A stretch of 64,000 bases of DNA from Martelella lutilitoris (lineage in GTDB: Bacteria > Pseudomonadota > Alphaproteobacteria > Rhizobiales > Rhizobiaceae), in NCBI RefSeq assembly GCF_005924265.1, contig NZ_VCLB01000005.1:310001-374000 (forward strand). The letters are read 5' to 3'. This document shows positions 8,625 through 24,561 of this stretch, in pieces. Positions within the stretch are counted from its first letter, which is position 1; each line of letters opens with the position of its first letter. The notes beneath the pieces were generated by a model, which saw only the letters and a program-made list of their open reading frames with translations, ran no database searches and was not told the origin of the DNA. A program made the translations under genes and the position numbers.

Positions 8625-8644
8625 GGGAATGGTGGGCGATGAGA
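8625..8644. repeat. attL core of the element
   Basis: Twenty bases identical to 24542-24561. Only the tRNA 3' end (CCA, acceptor strand and first T-stem bases on the minus strand) is present here, as expected for the side that received the displaced target sequence. Identity stops abruptly on both sides. Confidence 0.85.
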
Positions 8645-8916
8645 AACCGCCTGCTGCAAAAGAAAACAAATGCTTAGATGCATTTGAGACAAAAGAAAAA
8701 GATCAACGAAAACAGTGTTTTTCTTCGGGCGGTGTCTCACGTTTCGAGCCTGCGAATCAGCCGATTTTCGACGCCGCACAGTGGCTTCATGAGCACCGTT
8801 CGGAGGTCGGTAGTGCGATCATCCCCGCCTTGCGTGAACGCTTCCACCTAAGCGCCCTTGAGGCCATCGAAGCGGCCAAGCTGGCCCGCGAGATCGAACG
8901 CGGGAGGCAGGCATGA
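8629..8916 (+). CDS. Hypothetical element protein, first gene
   Basis: A 95-residue protein of unknown function. The N-terminal 40 residues are hydrophilic and of low complexity; the C-terminal half (FDAAQWLHEHRSEVGSAIIPALRERFHLSALEAIEAAKLA) reads as two or three amphipathic helices, possibly a small DNA- or protein-binding domain. It overlaps the replication gene by four bases and is probably co-expressed with it. The only in-frame ATG, at 8629, lies inside the attL core, so the start is uncertain. An alternative is initiation from a non-ATG codon further in. Confidence 0.6.
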   Translation: MVGDEKPPAAKENKCLDAFETKEKDQRKQCFSSGGVSRFEPANQPIFDAAQWLHEHRSEVGSAIIPALRERFHLSALEAIEAAKLAREIERGRQA

Positions 8917-9953
8917 GCGCTGACGATTACACCCGCCTGCGCATGACCTGGCTTGATCAGGTCTATGACGACGAAGCCCTGAGCAAGGGCGTTGCAACCA
9001 ACATTGCGTTCTTCATCTCCAAGCACTTCAACCGGCAGCGGTTCAAAGACAGCGGCATCTTCAGCGCATGGCCCAGCTATGCCACGTTGGCTGAAAAGGT
9101 CGGCTGCACGGAAAGGACCGTTCAGCGCGCCGTCGGCCTGCTGAAGGCACGTGGCCACCTGAAGACCAAAGGCAAGGGCGGCCGAAACTGCACGTTGACC
9201 TACTTCGCCATCCTGAAGCGTCCGGCCGAAGCAGAAGCCTCCGAAGACCCCGAAATGACCACTCAAAAAGGTAGACACACATGTCCACGTTTGAATGAAG
9301 ACGAGGTTTCTGCAACGTCAAAAGGTGGACATTCCGCGCCCGAAACGTGGACATTGGACGGTGCAAAAGGTGGACACCCATGTCCTACAAACACTTTGAA
9401 TAAATCTTTGAATGAAATCTCTGATATCGGCGCAAGGACGGAAAACGAACCGACACCGCAAACGCTACACCCAGCCGACCGGCAGAAGGCTCGGGAGGAA
9501 GGGAGCGAGCTGGACGTTCAGCGCATCACACCGGCGGCAGCGGCCGTTGCTGTGCTGTCTGCCCTGATCAAGGGACCGGGACCGTTGCCACCGCCACCGC
9601 CTATCGTTCGAAGAGATCCACGGCCGGAATGGCTGATGGATCATCAGGCGCAGCATGGCTGGCCGAACGTCTACGACAATCTCGGTAACCCCGAATGCTG
9701 GGCAGACGCTTTCGATGATCTGGCTTATGAGATGGAGCCTGTTGCGGCTTCGAAGGACAATCGCCTGTGGCGTGAATGGGCAGCGGTCTATCGCGATAGA
9801 GGCTGGCCACTGCCGCCTGCGCATGGTCAGCTTGTCCATTTCCCCGATTGCGGCCCGAAGGGCTTTGACGGCTTCCTCAAGCGCCTTGAGGCCTCTCTGA
9901 CCGATCAGGCCATCAGCGAGGCGGGAAACGTGCTGAGGATCGCGTCACGATGA
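8913..9953 (+). CDS. Winged-helix replication initiator-like protein
   Basis: A 346-residue protein with a winged helix-turn-helix at about residues 55-100 (SYATLAEKVGCTERTVQRAVGL), the arrangement of phage and satellite replication proteins such as lambda O. The middle (residues 115-165) is hydrophilic and encoded by DNA that holds directly repeated iteron-like sequences. The C-terminal third (residues 205-346) has WLMDHQ...GWPNVYDNLGNPECWADAF and no helicase or primase motif. No DnaC-like loader or primase is adjacent, so it would depend on host or helper replication proteins. It overlaps the preceding gene by ATGA. Regulation rather than replication remains possible. Confidence 0.6.
   Translation: MSADDYTRLRMTWLDQVYDDEALSKGVATNIAFFISKHFNRQRFKDSGIFSAWPSYATLAEKVGCTERTVQRAVGLLKARGHLKTKGKGGRNCTLTYFAILKRPAEAEASEDPEMTTQKGRHTCPRLNEDEVSATSKGGHSAPETWTLDGAKGGHPCPTNTLNKSLNEISDIGARTENEPTPQTLHPADRQKAREEGSELDVQRITPAAAAVAVLSALIKGPGPLPPPPPIVRRDPRPEWLMDHQAQHGWPNVYDNLGNPECWADAFDDLAYEMEPVAASKDNRLWREWAAVYRDRGWPLPPAHGQLVHFPDCGPKGFDGFLKRLEASLTDQAISEAGNVLRIASR
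9266..9385 (+). repeat. Iteron-like repeats inside the replication gene
   Basis: Two 21-bp repeats at 9266-9286 and 9365-9385 share 19 of 21 bases (consensus aaaaggtRgacacMcatgtc plus c). A shorter copy, aaaaggtggacattcc, is at 9320-9335, and a half-copy cgtggacattgg is at 9346-9357. They are followed directly by an AT-rich run (9386-9425). Repeats plus an AT-rich element inside the initiator gene is the layout of the lambda origin within gene O. Confidence 0.55.
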
Positions 9954-10129
9954 CAGACGGTAGCGATACAGCGAAGGCTTGCGGAACGCTGCCACGGGTA
10001 GCTCAGCCGGGCGAATTGGCAGGAAGATTTCAAAGATGCTGGACGCTGGCAGGGTCGGAAAGAAACCGGCCGCTGAGGACCGGGGGTGGTCTTAAACTTT
10101 CGGCCGTTTTCCGGGACCGGCGCGGGTAG
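9950..10129 (+). CDS. Possible 59-residue ORF, or non-coding junction region
   Basis: An open frame of 59 codons starts with ATGA overlap on the stop of the replication gene. The product would be basic and Gly/Arg-rich with no recognised motif. The DNA near its end (about 10075-10135, rich in CCGGGACCGG-type GC blocks around an AT core) resembles the non-coding end sequences I associate with cohesive-end phages using P27-type terminases. It may therefore be a packaging site rather than a gene. Nothing further is seen up to the ATPase start at 10317 apart from AT-rich DNA likely to hold its promoter. Confidence 0.25.
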   Translation: MTDGSDTAKACGTLPRVAQPGELAGRFQRCWTLAGSERNRPLRTGGGLKLSAVFRDRRG

Positions 10130-10316
10130 GTTTGCGCGAGAAATTTCCTAATTAGCGAGAAAAAAGCCTAATGATCGCGTAATGGCCAGAAGCCGGGTTC
10201 CGATCTTAGAGTATTCATTTTTTGAAATGCGTCGTATATTTTCCGAAGCTAACACGCTTCGGGCTAAGAAGTTCATTCTTATGATCTCGTAACTTTTGAG
10301 GGGATAGGGGGAGAGA

Positions 10317-11759
10317 ATGCCGGTTTTCGATGACAAAACGATAGCAAATATGTTCGGCGCTGAAGATGCGGAGAATGAAGCTCCGGAAAGATTGAAAGAG
10401 TACTTCTTTAGAAATAAAGCATATGAAAGCTTGAAGGCGGATTTGCCTATTAGGATTTTGGTTGGATACAAGGGGGTGGGAAAAAGTGCGCTTTTAAAGA
10501 TATGTAACATAGAAGACATTGAAGATGATATGCTTTCTCTTTGGGTTAGGCCGAATGATATATTCGGTTCTGTTGATACATCTGCAAGTAGCTTTCTGCA
10601 ACTTATTGAGAATTGGAAATCAGGACTATCTACACTGATTGTTCGTAAGGCCTTGGAGGGGTGCGAGCAGTACGACGAAGCAGATGCTGTGAATAAAATT
10701 ACTGGTGGAGCTCGGCATTTGATCTCCTCGCTTTACAGTCATTTTGAAAAGGTGCTGGGTACATCGAGTGGCGATGCAAAGCAGGTTATGCAGCGTTTCC
10801 TAAAAGAGAAGAAAATTCGAATATACCTAGATGACCTTGATCGAGGCTGGGAAGGAAGGAAGGAGGATATTCAGAATATTTCGGCTCTACTCAACGCGAT
10901 ACGAGACATGGCCGGCGAAGATCGAAATATTCAATTTCGTGTAGCGCTGAGGACAGATGTGTACCATCTGGTCAGGACATCCGATGAATCAACCGACAAG
11001 ATCGAAAGTAATTTAGTTTGGCTTAGCTGGTCGAACCATGAGATACTTGTAGCAATGGTCAAGAGAGTCACAACTTATCTTGGAGACAATTTCAATCAGG
11101 ACTATCTTCTGGAGTTAAAGCAGGATCAACTTATCAAGCTTCTAGATCCTGTTATAGAGCCTAGATTCAATGGTCGTGGAAAGTGGGAAAATATATCTAC
11201 CAGAAGAATACTAATGACGCTTACGCGACAAAGACCAAGGGATTTAATAAAATTATTCTATTACTCCGCAAAGGAGGCTCACAGATTGGATTCCACGGTT
11301 ATAAAGTCAACTCACCTGCAGAATATATTCGTAAAGTATAGTAGTGAGAGGCTTACGGACGTAATAAATGAATTCAAAACAGAGGTTCCAAATCTGAAAT
11401 TGGTTCTTCTGGGTATGCGACAAACAAAAAAAGAAAGAGAAGAGGGAATAGGTCCGATTTTTAGCGACGATCAACTAGTGACTAAAATGAAATCTGCACT
11501 GCGTACAGGCCATATATATTTCAAAAATGGAGAAGCAGTTTATCCATTGACCATGGCGAGATTTCTGTATCGCTGCGATTTCATCACCGCTAGGGTTGAT
11601 CACGACAATGAGATAGTCAGAAAACACTTTTCGGACAATCAACTTTTGGCCGAACCGCAGGCCCAGTTTGGATTCAAGTGGGAAATTCACCCCGCCTACC
11701 GTTGGGCGCTGGAGCCTCAACAGGGTGCTGAGAATCTGCGCTTTGACCTAGTTGCTTAG
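10317..11759 (+). CDS. P-loop ATPase, AT-rich cargo gene
   Basis: A 480-residue ATPase. The Walker A motif is GYKGVGKS (residues 50-57) and Walker B is IRIYLDDLDRG (about 167-177), followed by a sensor-like segment (FRVALRTDVYHLVR). The rest is helical with no recognised effector domain. It resembles the Sll1717-type P-loop ATPases often found as accessory genes. Base composition is clearly more AT-rich than the flanking phage genes, with rare codons such as ATA and AGA. It interrupts the step from replication gene to portal. A defence or exclusion role is an inference from location and composition; I see no partner gene. Confidence 0.7.
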   Translation: MPVFDDKTIANMFGAEDAENEAPERLKEYFFRNKAYESLKADLPIRILVGYKGVGKSALLKICNIEDIEDDMLSLWVRPNDIFGSVDTSASSFLQLIENWKSGLSTLIVRKALEGCEQYDEADAVNKITGGARHLISSLYSHFEKVLGTSSGDAKQVMQRFLKEKKIRIYLDDLDRGWEGRKEDIQNISALLNAIRDMAGEDRNIQFRVALRTDVYHLVRTSDESTDKIESNLVWLSWSNHEILVAMVKRVTTYLGDNFNQDYLLELKQDQLIKLLDPVIEPRFNGRGKWENISTRRILMTLTRQRPRDLIKLFYYSAKEAHRLDSTVIKSTHLQNIFVKYSSERLTDVINEFKTEVPNLKLVLLGMRQTKKEREEGIGPIFSDDQLVTKMKSALRTGHIYFKNGEAVYPLTMARFLYRCDFITARVDHDNEIVRKHFSDNQLLAEPQAQFGFKWEIHPAYRWALEPQQGAENLRFDLVA

Positions 11760-11830: not shown

Positions 11831-13021
11831 ATGAAGATATGGCCATTTTCCAAAACCGAACAGAAATCCTTATCCGAACCGACTGAGGCGGAGCTTGCGC
11901 TGTTTACCGGCAGCACGGGTTCCGGCTCTGGCGTTTCGCTTGCGGTGGCGTTGACGGTTCCAGCCGTTCAAAGCGCCATCCGCCTGATTTCCGAAGCCTG
12001 CGCAACGCTCGATATCCGGGTGGAACGGCGCGAGGGCACGACATGGACGCCGGATGCAGCGCACCCGGTTTCGAAACTCCTGGCCGACAGGCCGAATGAC
12101 TGGACCTCAACCTTCGAACTGATCCGCGATCTTGTCGCAACGGCGCTGACCCATGACCGGGGTGCCGTTGCCTGGATCAATCGTGTCGGCGGCGAGGTGC
12201 GGGAAATCGTCCGTTACGAGTCGTCGCATGTGACGGTGGACTTTTCCACCGATGGCCGGAGCGAACCGCGCTTTCGTATCAACAACCGCCCGGAAGATGC
12301 TGGCAACGTGATCTACCTGCGCGGCCCGTTCGGCCGGTCCTGCCTGTCTCTGGCGGCCGATGCTATCGGCACAGCGAAGGACATGGAAACCCATGCCCGC
12401 AAGCTGTTTCGCAATGGCGCGCGGCCGTCCGGTGTGATCGAGATGGCAAAGGGGCTGGGTGACGAAGGCCTCAAGAAGATGTCTGTCGCTTGGCGCAAGG
12501 CCCATGAGGGCACGGACAATTCCGGCCGCACGGCCATTTTGTGGGATGGCGCGACCTTCCGCCCGATCACCTTCAATTCCACCGACGCGCAGTTTCTGGA
12601 AAACCGCAAATTCCAGATCCTCGAAATCGCCCGTGGCTTTCGTGTGCCGCCATCGATGATCTACGACCTTGAGCGGGCCACATGGTCGAACTCCGAGCAG
12701 ATGGGCAAAGAGTTTCTGTCCTATACGCTGGAGCCTTGGCTGCGCGCCCTTGAGGGCGCTTTCCGCGTGGCGCTGTTCACCCCTGAAGAACGCGCCGATT
12801 ATCGCCTTGTCTTCGACCGTGACGACCTGACCCGTGCCGATCTCACCCACAGGGCCACGGCGATTTCCTCGTTGATCTCTTCGCGCGTTCTCAACGCCAA
12901 TGAAGGCCGCCACTGGCTGGACCTGCCGCCCTACGAGGGCGGCGAAGCCTTTTCCAACCCGCATATCAACACCGATGCCGACGCTGCCAAGCCTGACGCG
13001 ACCGGCAAGGGAGACGTTTGA
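11831..13021 (+). CDS. HK97-family phage portal protein
   Basis: A 396-residue portal protein that forms the dodecameric DNA gate of the capsid and docks the terminase. Family marks are the N-terminal helix with VPAVQSAIRLISEACATL, the wing segment ending YLRGPF, and the clip/stem stretch FLENRKFQILEIARGFRVPPSMIYDLERATWSNSE (shown in part). It opens a packed head operon; the protease starts four bases after its stop. Length is near the lower end for the family but complete at both ends. Confidence 0.92.
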   Translation: MKIWPFSKTEQKSLSEPTEAELALFTGSTGSGSGVSLAVALTVPAVQSAIRLISEACATLDIRVERREGTTWTPDAAHPVSKLLADRPNDWTSTFELIRDLVATALTHDRGAVAWINRVGGEVREIVRYESSHVTVDFSTDGRSEPRFRINNRPEDAGNVIYLRGPFGRSCLSLAADAIGTAKDMETHARKLFRNGARPSGVIEMAKGLGDEGLKKMSVAWRKAHEGTDNSGRTAILWDGATFRPITFNSTDAQFLENRKFQILEIARGFRVPPSMIYDLERATWSNSEQMGKEFLSYTLEPWLRALEGAFRVALFTPEERADYRLVFDRDDLTRADLTHRATAISSLISSRVLNANEGRHWLDLPPYEGGEAFSNPHINTDADAAKPDATGKGDV

Positions 13022-13024
13022 ACC

Positions 13025-13537
13025 ATGGAACGCTTCTTCATTGAAACCAAACTGGCTGTTCCAGACGACAGCGGCGCAATCGAGGGGCTGGCATGGCCCT
13101 TCGGTGCGCCTGATCGCGTGGGCGACGTGATCGAGAAAGGCGCGTTTGCGGGCATCTCCCTGCCGCTGCCGATGTTGTTTGCCCATGACCATGGCGATCC
13201 GGTCGGCACCTGGACGGACGCTTTCGAAGAGGCCGACGGGCTGAAGGTCAAGGGTTCGCTTCTGGTGAACGATCTCGCCCGCGCCCGCGAAGTCCATGCA
13301 CTGGTGAAGGCCGGTGCGGTGCGCGGGCTTTCGGTCGGTTTCGTCACCCGCAAGGCGGCTCCCCGCAAGGGCGGCGGTCGCACCATCACCGCGCTTGAGC
13401 TGATCGAAGTCAGCCTTGTGACGGTTCCCATGCATCCCGGCGCACATGTCGCAAGCGCCAAACACGCCATCCGGGCTTTGTCTCTGGCCGAAGCCCTCAA
13501 CCGCGCCACGGCGCATCTCAAAAAGGTAAACAAATGA
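13025..13537 (+). CDS. HK97-family prohead protease
   Basis: A 170-residue serine protease that cleaves the scaffold region of the capsid protein during maturation. The catalytic histidine is in LFAHDH (about H54) and the nucleophile in GLSVGF (about S103), with an acidic residue in LELIEVSLV (E125/E128) as the third member. It overlaps the capsid gene by four bases (ATGA), suggesting translational coupling. Catalytic residues are intact, so the head module looks functional. Confidence 0.93.
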   Translation: MERFFIETKLAVPDDSGAIEGLAWPFGAPDRVGDVIEKGAFAGISLPLPMLFAHDHGDPVGTWTDAFEEADGLKVKGSLLVNDLARAREVHALVKAGAVRGLSVGFVTRKAAPRKGGGRTITALELIEVSLVTVPMHPGAHVASAKHAIRALSLAEALNRATAHLKKVNK

Positions 13538-14703
13538 AACACCTTCACATGCAGGCGCTGGCAGGATCGGCGCAGATCATCACCAAGACCGGCGGCGAAG
13601 ACGACCCGGCCGGTATCGTCAACAAGGCGCTGGAAGACCTCACCCGCACGGTGGACGACCGCCTGAAGGCCGTCGAAGAAAAGGCCGGTTCCGACAAGCT
13701 GGAAGAGCGCCTGAAGGCGCTTGAGACCAAAGCCAACCGCCCCGATGGCGGCTTTGGCGGTTCCGGTCATGACGATATCACCGAAGAGCGCAAGGCCTTC
13801 GCCGCTTACCTCACCCGTGGCGATGCCATGCCGTCGGAAGAGCGAAAAGCCCTGACGGTTTCCTCCGATCCCGGTGGCGGCTATCTGGCCCCGGCCGAAA
13901 TGGCCAATGAGTTTATCCGCGATCTCTACGAGTTCTCGCCGGTTCGCTCTGTGGCAACCGTGTCTTCGACCGGCGGGGCGTCGGTGATCTATCCCAAGCG
14001 CACCGGCATCACCAACGCCACATGGGGCGGAGAGACGCAGGAACAGCAAGAGTCTCAGCCGGGCTTCGGGCAGGCGGAAATCCCGGTGAAAGAGCTGAAG
14101 ACCTATGTCGATGTCTCCAACCAGCTTCTGGCCGACAGTGCCGGACAGGCAGAGGCGGAAGTCAATCTGGCCTTGTCGGAAGATTTTGGCGTCAAGGAAG
14201 GGGCCGCCTTCGTTAACGGCAATGGCGTGCTTCAGCCGGAAGGCTTCATGACCAATGCCGATATCAAACCGCTTGCCAATGGCCATGCCGCCAATATCGA
14301 CCCGGCCGCGCTGATCGCGCTTCTCTATTCGCTGCCCGCGACCTATCGCAACCGGGGCGCATGGGCGATGAACGGCACCACGCTTGGCCGTCTGCGGACG
14401 CTGAAGGATGGCGACGGCCGCTTTCTCTGGCAGCCCAGCTATCAGGAAGGCCAGCCGGAAACGTTGCTCGGTCGTCCCGTTGTCGAAATGACCGATATGC
14501 CCGGCATCGAGGAAAATGCCTTCCCGATCATCTATGGCGACTTCTCGGCCTATCGCATCGTGGACCGCATCGGCCTGTCCGTCCTCGTCAATCCCTACCT
14601 GCTGGCAACCTCCGGCCTGACCCGCATTCACGCCACAAGGCGCGTGGGCGGCAAGGTGCTGCAGGCGGCCCGTTTCCGCAAGCTGAAGATGGCCACGAAG
14701 TAA
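13534..14703 (+). CDS. HK97-family major capsid protein
   Basis: A 389-residue capsid protein. Residues about 25-75 form the charged coiled-coil delta (scaffold) domain that the protease would remove, ending near the RKAFAAYLTRGD segment. The mature part begins around residue 105 with LTVSSDPGGGYLAPAEM, a classic HK97-fold start, and ends with TRRVGGKVLQAARFRKLKMATK (given in part). It contains the expected E-loop and A-domain regions. Complete and uninterrupted. Confidence 0.95.
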   Translation: MKHLHMQALAGSAQIITKTGGEDDPAGIVNKALEDLTRTVDDRLKAVEEKAGSDKLEERLKALETKANRPDGGFGGSGHDDITEERKAFAAYLTRGDAMPSEERKALTVSSDPGGGYLAPAEMANEFIRDLYEFSPVRSVATVSSTGGASVIYPKRTGITNATWGGETQEQQESQPGFGQAEIPVKELKTYVDVSNQLLADSAGQAEAEVNLALSEDFGVKEGAAFVNGNGVLQPEGFMTNADIKPLANGHAANIDPAALIALLYSLPATYRNRGAWAMNGTTLGRLRTLKDGDGRFLWQPSYQEGQPETLLGRPVVEMTDMPGIEENAFPIIYGDFSAYRIVDRIGLSVLVNPYLLATSGLTRIHATRRVGGKVLQAARFRKLKMATK

Positions 14704-14727: not shown

Positions 14728-15108
14728 ATGCGCGATCTCGCAAACAACATTGCCGTTCGCACGGCCCTGACACCCGGCATTGCTACCGCCACGAAAGACG
14801 GCCCGGTCATTGACCTGCAGGGCTTTGACAGTGCGGCCGTGATCATTGGCACCGGCGGCATTGCCGGTGACGGCGATTTTACCGCCACGCTGGAAGAAAG
14901 CGACGACGGCGAGGACTTCAGCGCCGTTGCGGCCGACCAGCTCGACAGCAACACGCCGGAAACCCTTGCCGCCGATAGCATGACCAGCATCGGCTATCGC
15001 GGCTACAGGCGCTTCCTGCGGCTTCACCTGGCGAAGAACAGCGGCACGTCGATTGCCGTTGCCGCCATTCTCATTCTCGGCAGCGCATCGACGCGGCCGG
15101 TCCACTAA
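14728..15108 (+). CDS. Small phage head protein
   Basis: A 126-residue protein directly downstream of the capsid gene, in the place of decoration or head-accessory proteins. It is predicted to be rich in beta strands (VIDLQGFDSAAVIIGTGGI, DGDFTATLEESDDGEDFSAV), a composition common in small head proteins found beside HK97 capsids. No transmembrane or catalytic motif is seen. A decoration role is inferred from position and composition. Confidence 0.7.
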   Translation: MRDLANNIAVRTALTPGIATATKDGPVIDLQGFDSAAVIIGTGGIAGDGDFTATLEESDDGEDFSAVAADQLDSNTPETLAADSMTSIGYRGYRRFLRLHLAKNSGTSIAVAAILILGSASTRPVH

Positions 15109-15244: not shown

Positions 15245-15625
15245 ATGCCGAAGAAAGGCGCGCGCGTTTGCGGCTATTGCGGCAAGCTTCATGACAGCGG
15301 CATGCGCTGCGAGCGCGTTGCCAAGCAGAACCGGGACCGCAAGGCCCGGTTCGATGCCAAGCGGCCATCTGCCCGGCAGCGCGGCTATACCGCCGAATGG
15401 CAGCGGGAAAGCAAGGCCTATCTGACCGCACACCCGGTCTGCATGCGCTGCGGTTCACCGGCTGCCCTTGTCGATCATATCCGCCCGCACAAGGGCAATC
15501 ACGATCTCTTCTGGGACAAGGCCAACTGGCAGCCGCTTTGCACGCCCTGCCACAACAGCGCCAAGCAGGCGGAAGAGCGGCGCATGATCTCCAACGGAAA
15601 GAAGGAACGGCGATGGCTATCGTAA
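15245..15625 (+). CDS. Phage HNH endonuclease
   Basis: A 126-residue HNH nuclease. Zinc-binding cysteine pairs (CMRCG, and CTPCH near residues 99-103) frame the active site VDHIRPHKG with the DH dyad near residue 78, and the N in ANWQPLC. In cos-type phages and capsid-forming satellites such nucleases stimulate terminase cleavage at cos. The start at 15245 has GGAGAG six bases upstream. The 136 bp before the gene carry GC-rich short repeats of no clear identity. Confidence 0.92.
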   Translation: MPKKGARVCGYCGKLHDSGMRCERVAKQNRDRKARFDAKRPSARQRGYTAEWQRESKAYLTAHPVCMRCGSPAALVDHIRPHKGNHDLFWDKANWQPLCTPCHNSAKQAEERRMISNGKKERRWLS

Positions 15626-15921
15626 GCCTTGAACAGGCAAAGCTTCACCTGCGTGTCGATTTTGACGATGACGACGCGCTGATCGAAAACCAGATGATTG
15701 CAGCCCAGAACCATATCGAACGGCTTCTGGGCTTTCGCATTGAAAAGACCTTTGGCAGCGAAGGACAAGACCCGATCCCGGCATCCCTGCAACAGGCCGT
15801 ACTGATGCTCACCGGCCATTGGTACGCGAACCGCGAGGCCGTGCTGATCGATGCCAGCCCGCGCTATGTGCCGCTGGGCGTTCGCGAGATCGTCAACGAA
15901 TACCGCAACTGGAGCTTTTGA
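15613..15921 (+). CDS. Head-tail connector protein, gp6-like
   Basis: A 102-residue adaptor of the gp6/YqbG type: SLEQAKLHLRVDFDDDDALIENQMIAAQNHIE (in part) is the hallmark start, followed by the helix AVLMLTGHWYANREAV. These proteins form a ring under the portal that completes the head and receives the tail. Here it is the only head-tail interface protein, so it would be the surface that accepts a tail made elsewhere. It overlaps the HNH gene by 13 bp and ends two bases before terS. Confidence 0.85.
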   Translation: MAIVSLEQAKLHLRVDFDDDDALIENQMIAAQNHIERLLGFRIEKTFGSEGQDPIPASLQQAVLMLTGHWYANREAVLIDASPRYVPLGVREIVNEYRNWSF

Positions 15922-16343: not shown

Positions 16344-17934
16344 CGCTTACCCTGACTGGATCTATGACGGTTCCGAGATCCCCGATCCCTTCGGCTATGG
16401 CGAGCGTGCCGTTCAGTTCCTGCGCATGCTGCGCCACCCGAAATCCCGGCTTCCCGGCCATGCCTTTGATCTCACCGAATGGCAGGAGCGGATTGTCCGG
16501 CGCATCTATGGCCCGTGCGATGCCAACGGCCGCCGGATCGTGCGCAATGTCGCGATGCTTCTGCCGCGCGGCAATCGCAAGACCTCGCTGGGCGCTGCCC
16601 TTGGCCTTCTCCATACCATCGGCCCGGAAGCAGTGCCCGGTGGCGAGGCGATCTTTGCCGCATCCGACCGCAAGCAGGCGCGCATTGCCTATGATGAAGC
16701 CATTGGCATTGTCCGGGCGATCCCGAAGGCGGAAAGCCGCCTCAAGCTCACCGACAGCAAGAACAGGCTGACAGCGCCGCGCAGCAATGCGTTTCTGGAG
16801 GCGATCTCTGCCGATGCAGGCACCCAGCACGGCCGAACCCCAATGTTTGCCCTCGTGGATGAACTGCATGCGTGGAAGAAACGCGAGCTGTGGGACGTGG
16901 TGCGCACGGGCCTGACGAAAGTGCCAGGATCGCTTTTGATGGTCATATCCACGGCCGGACGCGGCAGCGAGAATGTTGCGGCCGACTTTTACGACTATGC
17001 CCGCAAGGTCGCCCGTGGCGAGATCGATGATCCCGGTACCTTGCCCATTCTGTTTGAAACCCCGCGCGATGCCGACTGGCGCGATGAAGCGCACTGGTAC
17101 CGGGCCAATCCCGGCCTTGCCGATGGCTTCCCCGATATCGATGGTCTGCGCCAGCTTGCCCGCGAGGCGCAGGAACGCCCCGGCGAACGCGAGGCCTTCC
17201 GCCAGCTTCATCTCAATGTCTGGCTGGATCATTCCGCCGACCCGTTTGTCGATATGCTGATCTATGACGAAGGCAGCTTCCCCGTCGATCCCGACGAGAT
17301 GGAAGATAAGCCGTGCTGGATCGGTGTTGACCTGTCAGCCGTCAGCGACCTGACCGCCGTGGTCGCCGCATGGCGCAATGGCGACGGCTATATCGTCCAT
17401 CCATGGTTCTTTTGCCCTGAAGACAATCTGCGCGGCCGTGCCGACCGTGACGGCGTTCCATACCCTGAATGGGCCGAACAGGGCCATATCATCCCGACAC
17501 CCGGCGAGGTGATCGACTACCGCATTGTCGAGGACCATATTCGCGAACTCTGCGCCCGCTTCGATGTGCATGAAATCGCCTTCGACCCGCACATGGCGCG
17601 CAATATGCTCAACAATCTTCAGGAAGACGGTTTCCCGGCCGTGGAAATGCGACAGGGCTGGGTGACCATGGCCCCGGCGATCAAGGAACTCGAACGCGCC
17701 ATTCTCGGCCGTCGCCTGATCCATGGCGGGCATCCGGTGCTACGCTGGAATTTTGAAAACATCGCCATTCACACCGATGCAGCGGGCAACAAGGCCTTCC
17801 ACAAGGGCAAGAGCAAGGATCGCATTGACGGCGCTGTTGCCGCCGCCATGGCCATCAGCCGTGCGGCTGCTGGGGAAAGCAGCCTGTCCGTTTATGACAG
17901 TGAGGAATGGTCAGAGGCGATGGCGTATTTTTGA
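16306..17934 (+). CDS. Phage terminase large subunit
   Basis: A 542-residue packaging motor of the P27-partner type. The ATPase has Walker A LLPRGNRKTS (residues 85-94) and Walker B FALVDELHAW (about 181-190, D185 E186), with coupling motif VISTAG near 213. The nuclease domain starts at WIGVDLSAVSDLTA (D342) and has the later acidic metal site KDRIDGAVAAA near residue 500. All key residues are present, so packaging competence is likely. It ends the + strand head operon; the next gene is convergent and AT-rich. Confidence 0.95.
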   Translation: MMTVTSSASSVSDAYPDWIYDGSEIPDPFGYGERAVQFLRMLRHPKSRLPGHAFDLTEWQERIVRRIYGPCDANGRRIVRNVAMLLPRGNRKTSLGAALGLLHTIGPEAVPGGEAIFAASDRKQARIAYDEAIGIVRAIPKAESRLKLTDSKNRLTAPRSNAFLEAISADAGTQHGRTPMFALVDELHAWKKRELWDVVRTGLTKVPGSLLMVISTAGRGSENVAADFYDYARKVARGEIDDPGTLPILFETPRDADWRDEAHWYRANPGLADGFPDIDGLRQLAREAQERPGEREAFRQLHLNVWLDHSADPFVDMLIYDEGSFPVDPDEMEDKPCWIGVDLSAVSDLTAVVAAWRNGDGYIVHPWFFCPEDNLRGRADRDGVPYPEWAEQGHIIPTPGEVIDYRIVEDHIRELCARFDVHEIAFDPHMARNMLNNLQEDGFPAVEMRQGWVTMAPAIKELERAILGRRLIHGGHPVLRWNFENIAIHTDAAGNKAFHKGKSKDRIDGAVAAAMAISRAAAGESSLSVYDSEEWSEAMAYF

Positions 17935-18003: not shown

Positions 18004-21000
18004 TCATTTAGTTCTTAGCCAGGCTCTGACCCGATTTTCCAACTCAAATTGGTGAAGTTTGTCCATCTTTTCTTCGGTTGGCAGCGCGTCGGCGGCAAGA
18101 AGCATTTTCCTCGCTCGGTGTGGCGATGTCGACTTAAGAATCTCCGCGCCGTCACGATAGAAAGCATAGGCAAGATCAATGGCCCCCGTCTCTGCAAGTG
18201 AATTCCCTATCCATTCCCGTGCCCAACCTCGATTGTTAGCCCTACTTTTACCATTGTCGCCCTCGACGGCTATTGCAGATTTGCGGAGGCAGACCAATGC
18301 TTCCTCATGCCGCCCCATCAACTGCAAACAACGACCTACATTTCCTAAAAGAGGACCGTCGTCTTTTGCTGTTTCTGAGGCGGGATCGATCAACTCTTCA
18401 AGGGAATGCTGTTTGCAAAAGAAGCTAATAGCGCGGCTTGCGTCACCGTTGTCTCTACGTGCGAGCGCTAAGTTATGAGAGCAATCATGCCGAGTATCAA
18501 CATTTGACGTTTCCTTAAGCTCTACACCCCTTTCGCCCCACCTGATAGATTCATCATAGTCTTTCTTGATCCAATATAGGTAACAACGTATATCACAATA
18601 GCCAATGAACCTTGCCGTATTCTCTGGAACATATCTTCTGAATGTATCAAGTACACCTTCAGCTTCATCAAACCTATCATGAAGAGATAAGCACTCTACA
18701 TATGAAGTTAACACTCTGTCAAAAACATCAATTTCTCTACTATTAATTTCCCAATTAGTATTAGAGAAAAGTATTTTTGCAACTCTAATGTATTCTTCTA
18801 TGTTTCCGCTTCCTATAAGCGCGTCCGAACTTTCAAATAATGTATTAAACGCATCACTGATTTTTCCTGCCTCTATCTCCAGTTCTGCCTTCTGTGAGAA
18901 CCTCTCCAATAAAGATTGCGGTAGGTGGACGCCAACTATTTTTCCAATGCCGCTGATGATGACAGCGTATTGGTTCAGCACTATCTCGATGAAACCCAAC
19001 CTTTCAGAGCGAGCAAAATTCGTGCGAACGAACTGCCCGACAAGCGGATGAAGGTCATAAAGATCGGGTTCGTTTCGCTCCTTCTTAACGACCAGCAGAT
19101 TGGCATTAGTCAGAGACCTCATCGCACGATCAAATTTGTTGTATCGCAGCTTGGATGAGACCATTTCGAAAATGGTCTCAGAGTTCTCCGGCCTCACCGT
19201 TTCTGATAGAACCTGAAGAATTAGCCTTTCCCTATCCGGTAACTCGCCCCATATACTAGATAAAATGTCTGGACCTTCAGCTCGCCCACGCTCCAGATCA
19301 TCAAGTATCATATCGATGGTCAGTTTATCTCTTCGTGCGATTTGCGCTGATATCAGATCATTCCAAAAAGCGTGGCCTTTTGTAAATTCGAAAACTCTAT
19401 TAATGGCACGGTGGTCGATGCTATTTTTACCATTACGATTTTCGAACAGCTGAATAACTTCACCAAGTGAAAGGCCGGTTAGTCTAATTGTATCGAAACC
19501 CATAAGATCATACTTTATGGGAGGGCGGCAAGTGATGATTAGTCTGCTTTTAGTTGAACTATTGGAAAATTTAAATACTAACTTATCTAGTATTCCTAAG
19601 TATTTACTTTCTCCGAAGTCTACGTAATGATCAACGTTGTCGAGAACAATAACCGTCGAAACCTCTCGTGATAATTCAATAAATATATCAATTAAGTCAG
19701 ATTCGCTCGACCTAGATAGATCTGAAAATGATGTCTTTCCGCCTGAGAGGCGCCCAATTACTGAGATAATTTGTGTCCTGATCCGATCTCCTTCTTCTTT
19801 GCAATCCCGCCAGTCAACATGAACATAAGGAGTTTTTCCTTTCTCGACATCGGAAAGATAGTGGGCAGCTAAAACCGATTTACCTTCGCCTCCGAGGCCG
19901 GTTATAGAGACAACCTTTGCGGTGCTTCTGTGGAGCGTACCAATTTCATCCTCCCTACCTACCCAGTGATCTATACTGGGTGGCCTGTCTGACCCAAACT
20001 GAGGTAATTTTAGTATCGGAAGCTCCGGCGGCGTGCTTGGTTCCGGCTCAACGTCCTTAGGCGAATCATCATCTTTGGTCGATTTCTGTTCGGACCAGAA
20101 GGCGCTCAATCTTGGCAAAATTCTATGGCAATCGATGCCGCGATATAGAGAAACTCGCCCACGATCCAAACCCGGTTGAAGAAAATTAAGCGTTTCCTCA
20201 TCTATCTCCGGCGTATCGCTATAGAAAGTCCAAATAATCTCTGGAAATTCAGACGCATTAGCCACAAGCGCTCTTAATGAATCCGTAAAAATATCTCGCC
20301 AGCCGCCATACGCCAAAACGACGACAATTTTATCTTTCATTAGCGTCAGAATGGAATTCTTTAACGAGGGCCTCTTTTGTGAGAGCTGAGTACCGGTGTG
20401 CAGGCAGTCACTCCCTACCCAGAAGCCGTGAATATGTATGACATGGCAGCCCGAAGCTTCGCTTCGTAAAGGGTCGCCATCAGTAAACAATACTGTCCGC
20501 CACGCTTTTCCGCTCGCACTTTCGATTGATACCTCTATAAGAGGATCAAAATTAGATGTTATTATTTTTTTTCCAAATATTTCAGGGGCCTTCGAGCAAA
20601 GCTCTCCCAAAGACTTAACACCTGGCGTTAGGTGCCATGCCGATGTATTCTTTTCGAGTTCAATAAGAACACTATCAGGCGGAACTGAGAATCCGTTTTT
20701 TTGGGGGTCGCCTTCATAAGAGCTATGCGCATTCAAGACCGCCAACTTAATAATCTGCTCAGCGACGTGCGGACCTCTCCTGCCCGACAGAAACTCGAAG
20801 GCTTGCTGATAGGCATTCGAACTATTCCTTAGAGATTCTTCCAGTTTCGAAAAGCTACTAGTTCCACTAAAATAATTTCTGATTAAGTTCGTGACGCCGC
20901 TGACGTCTAGCACGCCGGTACTTATCTGAGCTGTGGGTGCTGTCAGTGGTGCTCCGACTACAAACAGGACCTCTTTGTTTTGCCCTGAAATTCCTTCTGT

Positions 21001-21057
21001 CAATCGATCAAAAAGAGCCTCTTCATCAAAGTATGCACTCAGGGGTATGCTACTCAT
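18004..21057 (-). CDS. SIR2-STAND NTPase with TPR domain, putative anti-phage protein
   Basis: A 1017-residue three-part protein. Residues about 1-325 are a SIR2-like domain (VVGAP at 33-37, TSNFD at 167-171, HIHG at 208-211, AYGGW at 249-253). Residues about 365-690 are an NB-ARC/STAND NTPase with Walker A GLGGEGKS (387-394), Walker B VIVLDNVD (469-476) and RLIITCRPP (505-513). The rest is helical TPR-like repeats. SIR2 effectors fused to STAND sensors (Avs5-type and related bacterial NLR-like proteins) deplete NAD+ on sensing phage proteins; that activity is inferred here. The canonical SIR2 GAG loop is altered to GAP. AT-rich, unlike its neighbours, and probably co-transcribed with the Xre gene upstream. 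Confidence 0.82.
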   Translation of the reverse strand: MSSIPLSAYFDEEALFDRLTEGISGQNKEVLFVVGAPLTAPTAQISTGVLDVSGVTNLIRNYFSGTSSFSKLEESLRNSSNAYQQAFEFLSGRRGPHVAEQIIKLAVLNAHSSYEGDPQKNGFSVPPDSVLIELEKNTSAWHLTPGVKSLGELCSKAPEIFGKKIITSNFDPLIEVSIESASGKAWRTVLFTDGDPLRSEASGCHVIHIHGFWVGSDCLHTGTQLSQKRPSLKNSILTLMKDKIVVVLAYGGWRDIFTDSLRALVANASEFPEIIWTFYSDTPEIDEETLNFLQPGLDRGRVSLYRGIDCHRILPRLSAFWSEQKSTKDDDSPKDVEPEPSTPPELPILKLPQFGSDRPPSIDHWVGREDEIGTLHRSTAKVVSITGLGGEGKSVLAAHYLSDVEKGKTPYVHVDWRDCKEEGDRIRTQIISVIGRLSGGKTSFSDLSRSSESDLIDIFIELSREVSTVIVLDNVDHYVDFGESKYLGILDKLVFKFSNSSTKSRLIITCRPPIKYDLMGFDTIRLTGLSLGEVIQLFENRNGKNSIDHRAINRVFEFTKGHAFWNDLISAQIARRDKLTIDMILDDLERGRAEGPDILSSIWGELPDRERLILQVLSETVRPENSETIFEMVSSKLRYNKFDRAMRSLTNANLLVVKKERNEPDLYDLHPLVGQFVRTNFARSERLGFIEIVLNQYAVIISGIGKIVGVHLPQSLLERFSQKAELEIEAGKISDAFNTLFESSDALIGSGNIEEYIRVAKILFSNTNWEINSREIDVFDRVLTSYVECLSLHDRFDEAEGVLDTFRRYVPENTARFIGYCDIRCYLYWIKKDYDESIRWGERGVELKETSNVDTRHDCSHNLALARRDNGDASRAISFFCKQHSLEELIDPASETAKDDGPLLGNVGRCLQLMGRHEEALVCLRKSAIAVEGDNGKSRANNRGWAREWIGNSLAETGAIDLAYAFYRDGAEILKSTSPHRARKMLLAADALPTEEKMDKLHQFELENRVRAWLRTK

Positions 21058-21119: not shown

Positions 21120-21353
21120 TTAGGTCATCCCCTTCTTCATACGAACACCGGGGCCTTCTCCATTCTCGGCCACGAAAATAACACCAGCAGTTTCTAGAGT
21201 GCGTTGCATAGCATTAACGGCTTCTTTGGAAACCTTCCGTCGTTCCCTCTCAAAATCTACAACGGTCGAGAGGCCTAGGGCGGCAGCCTCTGCAAGACGC
21301 GGCTGGGTCCAGTTAATCATAGCTCTGGCGGCTCTACACTGTGCTGGGGTCAT
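21120..21353 (-). CDS. Xre-family HTH regulator
   Basis: A 77-residue Xre/Cro-type repressor. The helix-turn-helix spans about residues 15-40 (TQPRLAEAAALGLSTVVDFE) and the C-terminal segment LETAGVIFVAENGEGPGVRMKK is a common rhizobial form. It lies 62 bp upstream of the SIR2-STAND gene in the same direction, with two near-identical dyads directly before its start, so it most likely represses itself and the SIR2-STAND gene. Confidence 0.85.
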   Translation of the reverse strand: MTPAQCRAARAMINWTQPRLAEAAALGLSTVVDFERERRKVSKEAVNAMQRTLETAGVIFVAENGEGPGVRMKKGMT

Positions 21354-21568: not shown

Positions 21569-22198
21569 ATGAGCAATTCGGTTTCAACGCAGGATGATTT
21601 CACCCGGCTTGTCGAGCTGACGCCGGAGTTGCGCAGGAAGATCGAAACAGCGGTGGAGCGGCTTCTGGATATTCTGGACGTCTACGATGGCGACGAGAAC
21701 GCAGAAGATGATGGCACCAGCGAGCCGGTGAATGGCTGGCCGAACGAAGGGCAGCGGCCCGTAAACGCCATGTCCTGCGATGATGACCGGGAAGTCGATA
21801 ACGCCGATTACGAGGAAGGCGGCGACCGTGAACCAACGCTTGGCTGGTCTTCCACCCCTCTTCAGGATCGCGAATACTGCCCTGAAGAGCTGATCGCGGC
21901 CGACAATGAATGCGAAGCTGACGTGGCCGATGAACAGCATGACGAGGCGGATGAAGGTAATAACGAACCTTGGCTGGGCTGGGTGGCCGGAGGCGACCAG
22001 ACCAACGTTCACCGCTTTGGGGATCGCGCCATGACCGACGGTGAGATTGATACGACCGTGCCGGATGGACGGGGCCTGCAGTTTGAACGTGGCTATGTCG
22101 TTCCTGTGCATCGCCTTGTCCGGCCGGTGGCTAAGCGTGGGGTTGTCAAATGCTACGCTTCGAAGGCGACGCATGGCGGTTTTGGGCGTGAGAGATAA
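21569..22198 (+). CDS. Acidic protein with EPxLGW repeats, unknown function
   Basis: A 209-residue, strongly acidic protein. A short helix (LTPELRRKIETAVERLLDILD) is followed by three spaced copies of an EP-x-x-GW-x(3-4)-Q motif (EPVNGWPNEGQ, EPTLGWSSTPLQ, EPWLGWVAGGDQ) within Asp/Glu-rich linkers; the C-terminus is basic. No catalytic motif. Similar acidic genes occur in rhizobial prophages, but no function is known to me. DNA mimicry or binding to a GW-recognising partner are only ideas. Confidence 0.65.
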   Translation: MSNSVSTQDDFTRLVELTPELRRKIETAVERLLDILDVYDGDENAEDDGTSEPVNGWPNEGQRPVNAMSCDDDREVDNADYEEGGDREPTLGWSSTPLQDREYCPEELIAADNECEADVADEQHDEADEGNNEPWLGWVAGGDQTNVHRFGDRAMTDGEIDTTVPDGRGLQFERGYVVPVHRLVRPVAKRGVVKCYASKATHGGFGRER

Positions 22199-22278
22199 GG
22201 GCTTTTCGGCGTGTGATACGGCGGAAACCTCGACCTGAATCGTTCAATGTGTACACTTGCCAACTTGAGGTAAATCTG

Positions 22279-22306
22279 CCATAAGTGGTCAATCGCCAAC
22301 TTATGG
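22279..22306. promoter_or_regulatory. Inverted repeat before the MerR-like regulator
   Basis: Perfect 8-bp arms CCATAAGT (22279-22286) and ACTTATGG (22299-22306) with a 12-bp spacer, ending nine bases before the GTG start. A related half-site (gccaacttgagg) lies just upstream at about 22259-22270. Probable operator for autoregulation. Confidence 0.55.
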
Positions 22307-22314
22307 AGCAAACA

Positions 22315-22866
22315 GTGACAATCTTTCAGGAGAAGTTCTCGACCGGACAGGTCATCAAGGCCGCAGGCATCAGCAACGCCACGCTGCAAAGCTGGATGAA
22401 GCGCGATGTCATTTCGGGTGAGCGCGAAGACAAGATCGAGGGCGGCGGCTCGCCGGGCCGTTATCGCAGCTTCGGCTTTCACACGCTGATGGAGATTGCG
22501 GTTGCCAAGGCCGTGGTCGATGCGGGCGTGAAAGACCTTCCGAATGCCTTCAAGGCGGCAAGGGGCTTTGCATACACGGGAACAGACCAGACCGCTTGGC
22601 ACCCGGAACGCGAACCCGGCCTGCCTTTCAGCAACCGGGGCAAGCTTCTTGGGCACACCCTTCTCGCCGTCGCTGAAGACAGGAGCTACGTGGCCTTCTG
22701 GCAATCCGGCGCTGATGCGCTGGCTGATATCCGCCAAGCCCTCGGACAACCCGAAGGCTTTGCCATGGTTTTCATCAACGAGGTTTTCGACCGCGTGATG
22801 GTTTCTCTCAATCGCCACCCCGAAGAGGTTCTTGAAGCCGCTTACGGGGCCGACACGAACGCATAA
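22315..22866 (+). CDS. MerR-like HTH phage regulator
   Basis: A 183-residue protein with an N-terminal MerR-type DNA-binding domain (FSTGQVIKAAGISNATLQSWMKR, in part), followed by a basic GSPGRYRSFGFHTLMEIAVAKAVVDAG stretch (in part) typical of MerR-like regulators in rhizobial prophages, and a C-terminal alpha/beta region of unknown role. The GTG at 22315 has GGAG six bases upstream; an in-frame ATG at 22303 lies within the inverted repeat and lacks a ribosome site. It probably controls the excision and integration genes that follow. Confidence 0.7.
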   Translation: MTIFQEKFSTGQVIKAAGISNATLQSWMKRDVISGEREDKIEGGGSPGRYRSFGFHTLMEIAVAKAVVDAGVKDLPNAFKAARGFAYTGTDQTAWHPEREPGLPFSNRGKLLGHTLLAVAEDRSYVAFWQSGADALADIRQALGQPEGFAMVFINEVFDRVMVSLNRHPEEVLEAAYGADTNA

Positions 22867-22947
22867 CAGGCCGATCAAAGGGAATCGGTTCAGGTGTTTT
22901 CGAAGGTCGGCTGGCGGCTTGGCTTTCTGGTTTGGTGAGGATGGAGA

Positions 22948-23139
22948 ATGAAGACTGAGAACATCATGACGCGCAAGCAGATCGCGCATGAGCTTGATGT
23001 TTCCGAGAAGACGGTTTCCCGGCTGTTCAAGCAAGGGCGCTTGCCGGGGGCCTACAAGCTGGGCGGGGCAACCTCCGCCATTCGCATGAAGAGGGCCGAT
23101 CTTAGCCGGGTGGGCCGAAACGACGAAAGGAAGGGCTGA
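22948..23139 (+). CDS. AlpA/excisionase-like HTH protein
   Basis: A 63-residue protein that is nearly all one MerR-superfamily helix-turn-helix (MTRKQIAHELDVSEKTVSRLF, then wing GRLPGAYKLGG). This is the form of AlpA and Xis proteins, which bend DNA at att sites or activate the integrase of satellites and phages. Its stop overlaps the next start (TGATG), and the set runs straight into the integrase gene. Confidence 0.75.
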   Translation: MKTENIMTRKQIAHELDVSEKTVSRLFKQGRLPGAYKLGGATSAIRMKRADLSRVGRNDERKG

Positions 23140-23393
23140 TGGCCGGTAACAGTTTGCGGGAAGTGACGATCCCCCGTTTTGCGTTGCGGGCAGAAGAGGC
23201 AGCGGCATCGTTGGCAATCTCGACGTCGCTTTTCAAGGCATGGGTTTCTGATGGACGCATGCCGAAGGGGCGCAAGATCGGCGGCGTGATGCTTTGGGAC
23301 ACTGAGAAGGTGAGGGCGGCTTGGAGCCGTCTTTCTGAAGATGGCGAAAGCCAGGACGATGATGAGAATCCCTTTGATGGGATGGTGGCCTGA
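23139..23393 (+). CDS. Second AlpA/excisionase-like small HTH protein
   Basis: An 84-residue protein with a similar single HTH (LRAEEAAASLAISTSLFKAWV, then DGRMPKGRKIGGVMLWDTEKV), the usual recognition-plus-wing layout of AlpA-type proteins, and an acidic tail. It overlaps both neighbours by TGATG junctions, so all three proteins are probably made from one message. Two such proteins in tandem suggest that one sets directionality and the other transcription; which does which cannot be told. Confidence 0.7.
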   Translation: MAGNSLREVTIPRFALRAEEAAASLAISTSLFKAWVSDGRMPKGRKIGGVMLWDTEKVRAAWSRLSEDGESQDDDENPFDGMVA

Positions 23394-24508
23394 TGAAAAC
23401 CCGACTGCGCTATTGTGTCTATGATCCTGATCGGCGCGGAAACCCGCGCTACTACGTGCGCCAAGTCGGTAAGCCGAAAGTGCGGATCAAGGCGGCGTAC
23501 AAGGACGATCAGGGGAACATCACACCGGAATTCATGAATGAGTATTGGGCGGCCTTGGCCGTCCTTAATGGTATGGCGGAACCGAAAAAGGAATCGCCCC
23601 GCGAAGAAACCTTTGACTGGCTGGTCGATCAGTATTTTCGCTCGCAGCGCTTCCAGCGGCTCAATGAGGCCACCCGGCGCGACAAGCGCAGTGTGTTGTT
23701 GCGGTTCTGCGAAACGGCCGGTGCGCTGCCCTACAAGAAGTTCCGCAAGAAGGACATGGAGGCCAGCCAGTTCAAGCGCCGCGAAACGCCCGGTGCAGCT
23801 GACAAGCTCGTGAAGGTGATGCGCGCACTCTATAACTGGGCGATTGACGAAAAGCTTGCCGTGGAAAACCCGGCAGCGCGTGTCGGCAAGATCAACAATA
23901 AGTCGGAAGGCTTCCACACATGGACGCCGGAAGAAGTTGACCGGTTCCGCGCCTTTCATCCGCTCGGCAGCAAGCCGCGACTGGCGATGGAAATCATGAT
24001 CAATGTGGGCGCGCGGATCTCCGACGCATGCCGCCTCGGCCGCCAGCACGAAACCATGATCAACGGTCGGCGCTGGCTGAAGTTCACCGCTGAAAAGAAC
24101 CGTGACCGCTTTCCGGTGCTGATCGAGGTGCCGATGACCTCTGACCTTATCAAAGCGCTCGAACGCACAGAGACGGGCGATATGGCCTATCTGGTGACCA
24201 GTTTCGGCAAGCCGTTCGTGAAAGAAGGTCTCGGCAACAAGATGCGCGAATGGTGCAATCAGGCGGGGCTGAAGCGTTGCAGCGCTCACGGCCTTCGCAA
24301 GGCTGCTGCCGTGATCATGGCTGAAAGCGAAGTGTCTGCGCCGGAACTTTGCGCGGCCTTCGGATGGCGCAATCTCAGCACTGCACAGATCTACATTCGC
24401 GAGGCTGAAAAGCGCCGTCTCTCCCGAAATGCCTTCGAACGTGTCGAACGCTTCAGGAACAGAAATGTCTCACTTTCAAAAGCGAAAAACAGCGATGAGA
24501 CAAATTGA
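23393..24508 (+). CDS. int: Tyrosine recombinase integrase
   Basis: A 371-residue phage-type integrase that joins attP with the tRNA-Val attB. The catalytic set is intact: R208 (GARISD), K235 region (FTAEKN), H299-x-x-R302 (HGLRK), W325 (FGWRN) and the tyrosine nucleophile at about Y334 (QIYIREAEK). The N-terminal part has an arm-binding region and a SAM-like core-binding domain (residues 70-165). The gene ends 33 bp before the attR core, the usual arrangement for elements using tRNA genes. Confidence 0.95.
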   Translation: MKTRLRYCVYDPDRRGNPRYYVRQVGKPKVRIKAAYKDDQGNITPEFMNEYWAALAVLNGMAEPKKESPREETFDWLVDQYFRSQRFQRLNEATRRDKRSVLLRFCETAGALPYKKFRKKDMEASQFKRRETPGAADKLVKVMRALYNWAIDEKLAVENPAARVGKINNKSEGFHTWTPEEVDRFRAFHPLGSKPRLAMEIMINVGARISDACRLGRQHETMINGRRWLKFTAEKNRDRFPVLIEVPMTSDLIKALERTETGDMAYLVTSFGKPFVKEGLGNKMREWCNQAGLKRCSAHGLRKAAAVIMAESEVSAPELCAAFGWRNLSTAQIYIREAEKRRLSRNAFERVERFRNRNVSLSKAKNSDETN

Positions 24509-24541
24509 GGAAATTATGATGGGAAAACAGTGCCCTAAAAA

Positions 24542-24561
24542 GGGAATGGTGGGCGATGAGA
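24542..24561. repeat. attR core of the element, within tRNA-Val
   Basis: Second copy of the 20-bp direct repeat found at 8625-8644. It covers the encoded CCA, the discriminator, the 3' acceptor strand and the start of the T stem, so the element restores an intact tRNA on integration. Confidence 0.85.

Follow-up and report, generated by a model that had tools for sequence, protein, structure and literature searches.

Gene content of the element at the tRNA-Val gene

The analyzed window (the whole 64-kb stretch of Martelella lutilitoris DNA) contained a 15.9-kb element integrated in a tRNA-Val gene and bordered by an exact 20-bp repeat (Table 1). With up to two mismatches allowed, this attachment (att) repeat was found at only two places in the window, both of them element ends. 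Nineteen proteins, 18 of which were encoded in or overlapped the element and one (7996–8274) just outside it, were scanned with Pfam and PHROGs. The analysis bore out what had been read from the letters before: att repeats, an integrase, a replication-initiator-like gene, and a complete HK97 head-packaging set were present. The element is probably an integrated, apparently intact capsid-forming phage satellite.

No family named for tail, tape measure, baseplate, or lysis was found among the 19 proteins, and all six reading frames of the window were free of matches (E ≤ 0.1) to 11 tail and neck hidden Markov models (HMMs) derived from relatives, in agreement with the sequence-only reading, which had seen no tail or lysis genes. 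Short tail-tube and gp10 matches were rejected as relics of tail genes: they lay in the HNH and gp6 frames, the query open reading frames (ORFs) being extended upstream. The head genes followed the order portal, protease, capsid, decoration, HNH, gp6, small terminase (TerS), large terminase (TerL), whereas the canonical order was found in Rhizobium phage RHph_X2_25 and in the resident prophage described below; the proposed difference from a simple prophage is thus real. Of the two AlpA-like proteins claimed earlier, one had matches to HTH_17 (PF12728) and phrog_66, the AlpA model PF05930 itself giving no match; the second, a small regulator, matched phrog_25900.

The small head protein was predicted to be a beta-sandwich (predicted local distance difference test score of 91). 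Its best profile match was the capsid decoration protein 8cjz_B (E 0.0021). By fold it matched mostly unnamed phage proteins and, weakly, a jelly-roll in 3j4u, the capsid of a Bordetella phage (E 0.0017); the fold search of PDB gave no match at E ≤ 0.001.

Two genes differed in G+C content from the head module (62%): the SIR2-NB-ARC-TPR gene (45%) and the P-loop gene (42%). PADLOC matches of the former, a STAND-like gene, were weak and pointed to SIR2 parts of prokaryotic Argonaute systems; it may be a defence gene, not yet catalogued, that travels as cargo of the satellite. The P-loop protein (480 aa), encoded between the replication gene and the portal, fell into phrog_22717, an unassigned family, and is another possible defence cargo.

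Table 1. Features of the integrated element (positions in the window) and of a protein conserved in its tube-bearing relatives (positions in the loci)
Feature	Position	Strand	Evidence or remark
attL, exact 20-bp direct repeat	8625–8644	no strand	repeat search
Small ORF, 95 aa, start uncertain	8629–8916	+	phrog_24797-like, E 5e-5
Replication-initiator/O-like protein	8913–9953	+	HTH_36 (Pfam, PHROGs); copy in the contig C13 element 68% identical
P-loop ATPase-like cargo, AT-rich	10317–11759	+	ORC-CDC6-like match below cut-off
Portal	11831–13021	+	Pfam 6e-85, PHROGs
Prohead protease S78	13025–13537	+	Pfam 5e-22, PHROGs
HK97-type major capsid protein	13534–14703	+	Pfam 2e-80, PHROGs
Capsid decoration-like beta-sandwich (small head protein)	14728–15108	+	phrog_5707, profile and fold comparison
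HNH endonuclease, packaging module	15245–15625	+	Pfam 1e-6, PHROGs
gp6-like head-tail adaptor Ad1	15613–15921	+	Pfam 2e-18, PHROGs
P27-type TerS	15924–16343	+	Pfam 2e-19, PHROGs
TerL	16306–17934	+	Pfam 4e-39 and 5e-16, PHROGs
SIR2-NB-ARC-TPR defence-like cargo	18004–21057	-	sister elements have a tape measure gene at the same place
HTH repressor-like protein	21120–21353	-	
209-aa protein, function not assigned	21569–22198	+	homologue in the G010 element
193-aa protein	22285–22866	+	no Pfam, PHROG or PADLOC match
AlpA/excisionase-like HTH_17	22948–23139	+	Pfam PF12728, 1e-7
Second small regulator, 84 aa	23139–23393	+	phrog_25900
Tyrosine integrase	23393–24508	+	Pfam 2e-18
attR, exact 20-bp repeat, overlaps tRNA-Val 3' end	24542–24561	no strand	repeat search
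tRNA-Val (TAC), integration target	24547–24622	-	
320–380-aa zinc-ribbon-like protein	L044:15250–16398, L047:16329–17291, L045:4241–5212, L046:15382–16488, L049:3411–4391		

Integrity and signs of mobility

A second head-only copy was found on contig C13 of the same genome. Its head proteins were 94–99% identical to those of the window element; its integrase belonged to another family, and its site was tRNA-Arg. Comparison of the head genes of the two copies gave a nonsynonymous divergence (dN) of 0.008–0.034, a synonymous divergence (dS) of 0.07–0.28, and dN/dS values of 0.03–0.15 with a median of 0.04: 0.03–0.08 in six head genes, 0.13 in TerS, and 0.15 in the decoration-like protein. None of the eight head genes contained stops in the aligned parts, so the sister head genes have not been inactivated. 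Judged from these ratios, the head genes are under purifying selection.

The tRNA-Val site was empty in two of the eight Martelella loci (genomes G004 and G006), where the left flank of the window (7991–8227, 72–73% identical) lay 348–365 bp from the att core and was followed by the right flank; in the other six loci, the left flank was not matched near the att core. In genome G002, the tRNA-Val/tRNA-Asp/nuoA-nuoB region of contig C1 (~1,327,000; L247, L267) aligned end to end with the right flank of the window at 91% identity; the left flank was not found within 7 kb upstream.

Contig C49 of Martelella alba (12,683 bp; L084/L306) contained a 47-bp tRNA-Gln att core (L084:6396–6442) with element DNA on both sides: the TerL side on the left and the integrase, rep, and portal genes on the right, with no chromosomal gene recognized. 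Another M. alba contig, C48 (154,157 bp; L303, L305), ended in attR, with 44 bp from the right end of the element, then the core and the remainder of tRNA-Gln. In M. alba, the right end of the element therefore has two junctions, one with the chromosome and one with the left end of the element, implying a circle or a tandem. This attP-like junction may be taken as a natural hint of excision.

These data bear on whether the element is a siphoprophage in decay, already stripped of tail and lysis genes and in the course of being lost. The stop-free head genes with their low dN/dS, the sister copies, the empty sites, and the attP-like junction in M. alba argue against it, and the empty sites and the junction, together with the different integrases of the window and C13 elements, suggest mobility. 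The earlier proposal that the head set is selected as a unit and is not a decayed prophage is in line with this. Decay is taken up again below with the evidence from relatives.

Relatives and their two architectures

In a capsid search of 201 genomes, six other Martelella genomes had matches of 73–84% identity, and the genome of the strain itself two more (99% and 73%). Scanning GTDB genomes with a TerL profile yielded 222 relatives, of which the best 80 were kept; these relatives included Rhizobiales, Rhodobacterales, Azospirillum, and Sphingobium. At least 521 TerL relatives were present in IMG/VR, the best 80 of which were taken; a 15,892-bp entry with an identical TerL was among the matches listed. 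Among 50,697 phage records, 2,502 matched TerL and 527 matched the capsid, none of them reaching 60% identity; the matches ranked best had 38.8% for TerL and 37.8% for the capsid, and a partial match to the capsid had 39.9% over 71%. The sewage record MW091529.1 (18 kb), which has a related capsid, was dropped as a candidate packaged satellite owing to its order, resembling that of gene transfer agents (GTAs), and its tail genes. Among open-licence papers, no title or abstract opening described a head-forming satellite from Alphaproteobacteria or a satellite that encodes a tape measure. The family is widespread in Alphaproteobacteria and apparently undescribed.

Many relatives encoded more than a head. 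In these tube-bearing elements, one of them on contig C2 of the same genome, genes for tail assembly chaperones, the major tail protein, the neck (HK97 gp10), the tail terminator, and head closure were located before TerS, and a tape measure protein of 630–930 aa was encoded directly after TerL; some also had a lambda gpM-like protein. TAC11 of some relatives was named GTA-gp10. The HMMs sorted 181 overlapping rows into 80 head+tube, 37 head-only, 4 head-only with closure, 9 mixed, 49 partial, and 2 unclassified. Twelve relatives fetched whole had att repeats of 19–52 bp and lengths of 15.5–19.2 kb. The head+tube elements (n = 30) were 16.3–19.2 kb long, with a mean of 17.7 kb and a standard deviation of 0.6 kb, and the clean head-only elements (n = 7) 15.0–16.9 kb, three of the seven (L099, L107, L142) resting on repeats of 15–17 bp at a tRNA; L085 and L106 were dropped from the size means as presumed duplicates.

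In the Martelella elements, conserved gene clusters and large unassigned genes were scanned singly, small unassigned ORFs being left out; no hub or lysis family was matched in the scanned genes of the tube-bearing ones. An 87-aa protein of the C2 element matched phrog_12296 'tail fiber protein' (5e-15) and was 36% identical to a 122-aa protein encoded beside gpM in the resident prophage. Outside the genus, the tape measure of L062 contained an endolysin-like domain. Among 117 non-core ORFs scanned from 18 other head+tube elements (the 8 ORFs of L056 being left out), two (L086 and L154, assigned by coordinates) matched the distal tail protein and one a tail assembly family. For these ORFs, 25 of 68 families were listed, none of which was a hub, fibre, or lysis family; exceptions could hide among the others.

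Non-core genes were likewise scanned in nine elements filed as head-only or head-only with closure (103 ORFs). The 25 of 90 families listed for them included adaptors (7 members), primases, helicases, and four tape-measure families with two members each. L093 and L155 carried phrog_19914 tape measures (assigned by coordinates), and a tape-measure-like ORF of 1337 aa was recognized by eye in L134.

The TerL tree was built from 113 non-redundant rows and three phage outgroups by a quick method, with support from the Shimodaira–Hasegawa-like approximate likelihood ratio test only. Near-identical or short TerLs had been removed (133 to 113 rows), and the other partial (49 in all) and unclassifiable (2 in all) rows were left out. 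L093, L155, and L134 were relabelled beforehand; L050, L083, and L084 (partial) were set as head-only and L051 as tube-bearing by hand, L050 and L083 being the same element from two collections. The window element, C13, the IMG/VR sister, and the M. alba copies formed one well-supported head-only clade (98; 6 rows, 5 elements). Its sister group consisted of four head+tube Martelella rows (100) within a 24-row clade that was otherwise all head+tube (97), both also well supported. Over the 113 family rows, the head-only label changed 10 times, at least 5 of these changes being forced by well-supported branches. By parsimony on this tree, the window lineage is one that lost its neck, tube, and tape-measure genes.

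The sequence-only reading had named deletion from tail-bearing relatives as what would speak against a satellite. The part concerning deletion stands, as genes for neck, tube, and tape measure are present in the sisters, and the M. alba head-only copy L083 retains a tail-tube-like ORF (130 aa, divergent); both facts count in favor of decay. However, these sisters are themselves att-bounded, satellite-like elements of 16–19 kb with no hub or lysis gene recognized in the parts scanned, so loss of the tube is not equivalent to prophage decay. Moreover, the same loss is common to copies at different tRNAs here and in M. alba, and it recurs across the tree. Decay is strongly disfavoured, and we regard a dying prophage as improbable.

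An episomal relative was found as well. Plasmid unnamed5 of Paracoccus marcusii (L301), circular and 17,494 bp long, encoded the head, a chaperone, neck, terminator, closure, and an 845-aa tape measure protein, together with a plasmid Rep; its TerL was 50% identical, and the integrase HMM gave no match. It appears to represent a satellite-plasmid from a genus other than Vibrio. In the tube-bearing Martelella satellites, a conserved protein of 320–380 aa with many zinc-ribbon-like cysteine motifs was encoded directly downstream of the tail genes (Table 1); it had weak HNH/NinG matches and no function assigned.

Tape-measure C-termini and the satellite interpretation

A siphoprophage was located on contig C17 of the same genome (~2–34 kb; L262, L263), with an integrase, canonical head genes, a 1040-aa tape measure, gpM, and a 1065-aa protein that matched Phage-tail_3. 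Additional genes were tentatively assigned by eye, from the gene order of lambda, to tip and endolysin-like functions. The prophage appears complete. A near-identical tail-tip set recurred in other Martelella genomes, with a tape measure of 620–670 aa or ~1040 aa.

Between the C2 element and this prophage, identity was 62% for gpM (over 93 aa), 47% for the final 74 aa of the tape measure, and 27–33% for portal, capsid, TerL, and gp10; gp6 matched in two short pieces (43% and 34%). Tape measures ending in a near full-length match to the C2 C-terminus were found in 11 further loci of the genus, and the 1065-aa tip protein was 87–97% identical in the seven loci reaching it, of nine fetched.

Tape measures of 11 satellites and 13 prophages were compared in a matrix, the C-terminus being taken as the last 60 aa. 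C2-type C-termini matched ten prophages of this type (53–65%, z 25–40), including the own prophage, although the tape-measure body was only 24% identical to it. The C-terminus of the G010 satellite stayed at background (z -1 to 1) against these ten, though its body was 43–45% identical to seven of them, and matched only L298 (51%, z 25; body 26%). That of the G006 satellite matched L299 (46%, z 15) and L300 (36%, z 13), with no other value above z 3; C2-type ends matched the same two more weakly (40–41%, z 15–19). The C-terminus of the G004 satellite had no match among the 13 tape measures, and the five satellites from outside the genus were never above z 6. Between the tape measures of C2 and G010, identity was 71–90% per 60-aa window and dropped to 40 and 26% in the last 90 aa.

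The prophage tape measures had been found via satellite C-termini, and C-terminal identity was thereby itself selected for; what is informative is therefore that body and C-terminus point to different partners. The C-terminus of the tube-bearing relatives thus behaves, by these comparisons, as an exchangeable cassette whose three types match different phage-like loci at 46–65%. In lambda-like phages, the tail-tip complex is bound by the C-terminal end of the tape measure while the tail is being assembled. We infer from this specific footprint that the tube-bearing satellites may steal the tip. All three C2-type satellites occurred in genomes with a matching prophage; that prophage type was present in 8 of 13 Martelella genomes, so co-occurrence proves little. 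According to passages of PMC11389934, co-occurrence alone has not yielded satellite–helper pairing.

The satellite interpretation implies the following life cycle. A helper siphophage would trigger excision of the window element, which would replicate and package its 16-kb genome with its own terminase into its own heads. These heads would be joined to helper-made neck closure and tails, and the particles would leave the cell by helper lysis; the SIR2-NB-ARC cargo may protect the host. Tube-bearing sisters would make their own tail tube and take only the tail tip from the helper, via a helper-matched tape-measure C-terminus; in some, a gpM-like or Dit-like protein would aid docking alongside this C-terminus, which would copy the tip-binding end of the helper. 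The window lineage, after the loss of neck, tube, and tape measure, would need a complete tail. A head-forming, tail-less satellite is supported by the size class of these att-bounded elements, the sister copies, the empty sites, the purifying selection on the head genes, the repeated head-only lineages, and the attP-like junction of the M. alba sister. We lean, with only slight preference, towards the wider proposal of a new satellite family whose tube-bearing members steal only tip and lysis functions via the exchangeable C-terminus and whose lineages repeatedly drop the tube.

Several points weigh against the satellite interpretation of the window element. Of the head-tail connectors, the gp6 adaptor was present in the window element, while a head-closure (Hc1) gene was not found in it by PHROGs or the family HMM (E ≤ 0.1). 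A primase was not recognized in the element by Pfam or PHROGs, as already stated in the earlier reading; the sole replication gene encoded the replication-initiator/O-like protein. The attL junction of M. alba was not found, and a tandem insertion would yield the same attP-like junction. A terminal repeat of 12–200 bp was present in none of the 80 IMG/VR loci, those cut by the flank limit not being judgeable. Three of the eight checked tRNA-att-bounded head-only elements carried a tape measure of another family; head-only calls being HMM-based, the number of head-only origins may be overestimated, and the corrected counts weigh slightly against the proposal. No helper-matching interface was found for the window element, its gp6 being just 45% identical to that of the resident prophage over 40 aa. 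Sequence comparison thus pointed to no particular helper for it.

The adaptor bears on a nested arrangement as well, in which the neck and tail would come from the co-resident C2 satellite and the tip of the latter from the resident prophage. The head-only, tube-bearing, and prophage tiers are all present in one genome, and the window adaptor was 56% identical over 102 aa to that of C2, a closer likeness than to the prophage adaptor; such likeness is, however, expected from shared ancestry alone, and we consider nesting unlikely.

A domesticated GTA-like or defence island, making heads for the benefit of the host and serving mainly to carry the SIR2-NB-ARC and ATPase genes, would also fit the two AT-rich cargo genes, as well as the cargo in the corresponding position of other head-only elements, which by visual reading is kinase, helicase, AAA, and protease-like. 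Among solved structures, the best relatives of the window capsid were 6tb9/6tba, which we take to be Rhodobacter GTA capsids. GTAs of Alphaproteobacteria have the canonical order, a full tail, and no integrase. In contrast, the window element has its own integrase and att sites, variable integration sites among its relatives, a narrow size range, its own small terminase, and no tail genes; the host GTA-like cluster, in canonical order, is separate (contig C17), its capsid being 34% identical. Such an island is highly improbable. An autonomous temperate phage would carry complete tail and lysis genes and a GTA a canonically ordered cluster with tail genes; neither was found in the window element.

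Among known systems, the capsid-forming phage-inducible chromosomal islands (cf-PICIs, e.g., EcCIEDL933) encode their own capsid, protease, portal, adaptor, HNH, TerS, and TerL, lack tails, and average ~14 kb, according to passages of PMC10690885 and PMC10803314. The window element likewise is an integrated island with its own head and packaging set and without tails. Unlike them, it is alphaproteobacterial, no head-closure gene was recognized in it, and its nearest kin encode a neck, tail tube, and tape measure, the head-only state having arisen by loss. The earlier assignment as a capsid-forming satellite can thus be kept for function, supported by gene set, selection, and signs of mobility; membership in the cf-PICI family proper is less certain, neither a head-closure gene nor a primase having been recognized. 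The cf-PISP satellite-plasmids of Vibrio are, in the passages of PMC13230959, head-forming, tail-less, and ~15 kb long; the P. marcusii plasmid is a comparable episomal form, but it adds neck, terminator, and tape-measure genes, and the window element is chromosomal. The capsid-encoding Streptomyces satellites MulchRoom and MiniFlayer are described in the passages of PMC10690885 as having direct terminal repeats, virulent helpers, and no significant homology to PICIs; no tape-measure cassette is mentioned for them there.

The cf-PICIs are described as helper-dependent for tails; the present family suggests a ladder of dependence, with the tip only and then the whole tail being taken. Repeated steps down this ladder make the way in which satellites shed viral functions testable in one genus, and the tape-measure C-terminal cassette would allow satellite–helper pairing to be predicted at the sequence level. 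Head-forming satellites would also be extended to a large bacterial class, with defence-like cargo. On contig C11 of the same genome (~52–56 kb; L266), a remnant or mini-element contained a partial capsid gene together with gp6, protease, portal, and integrase genes.

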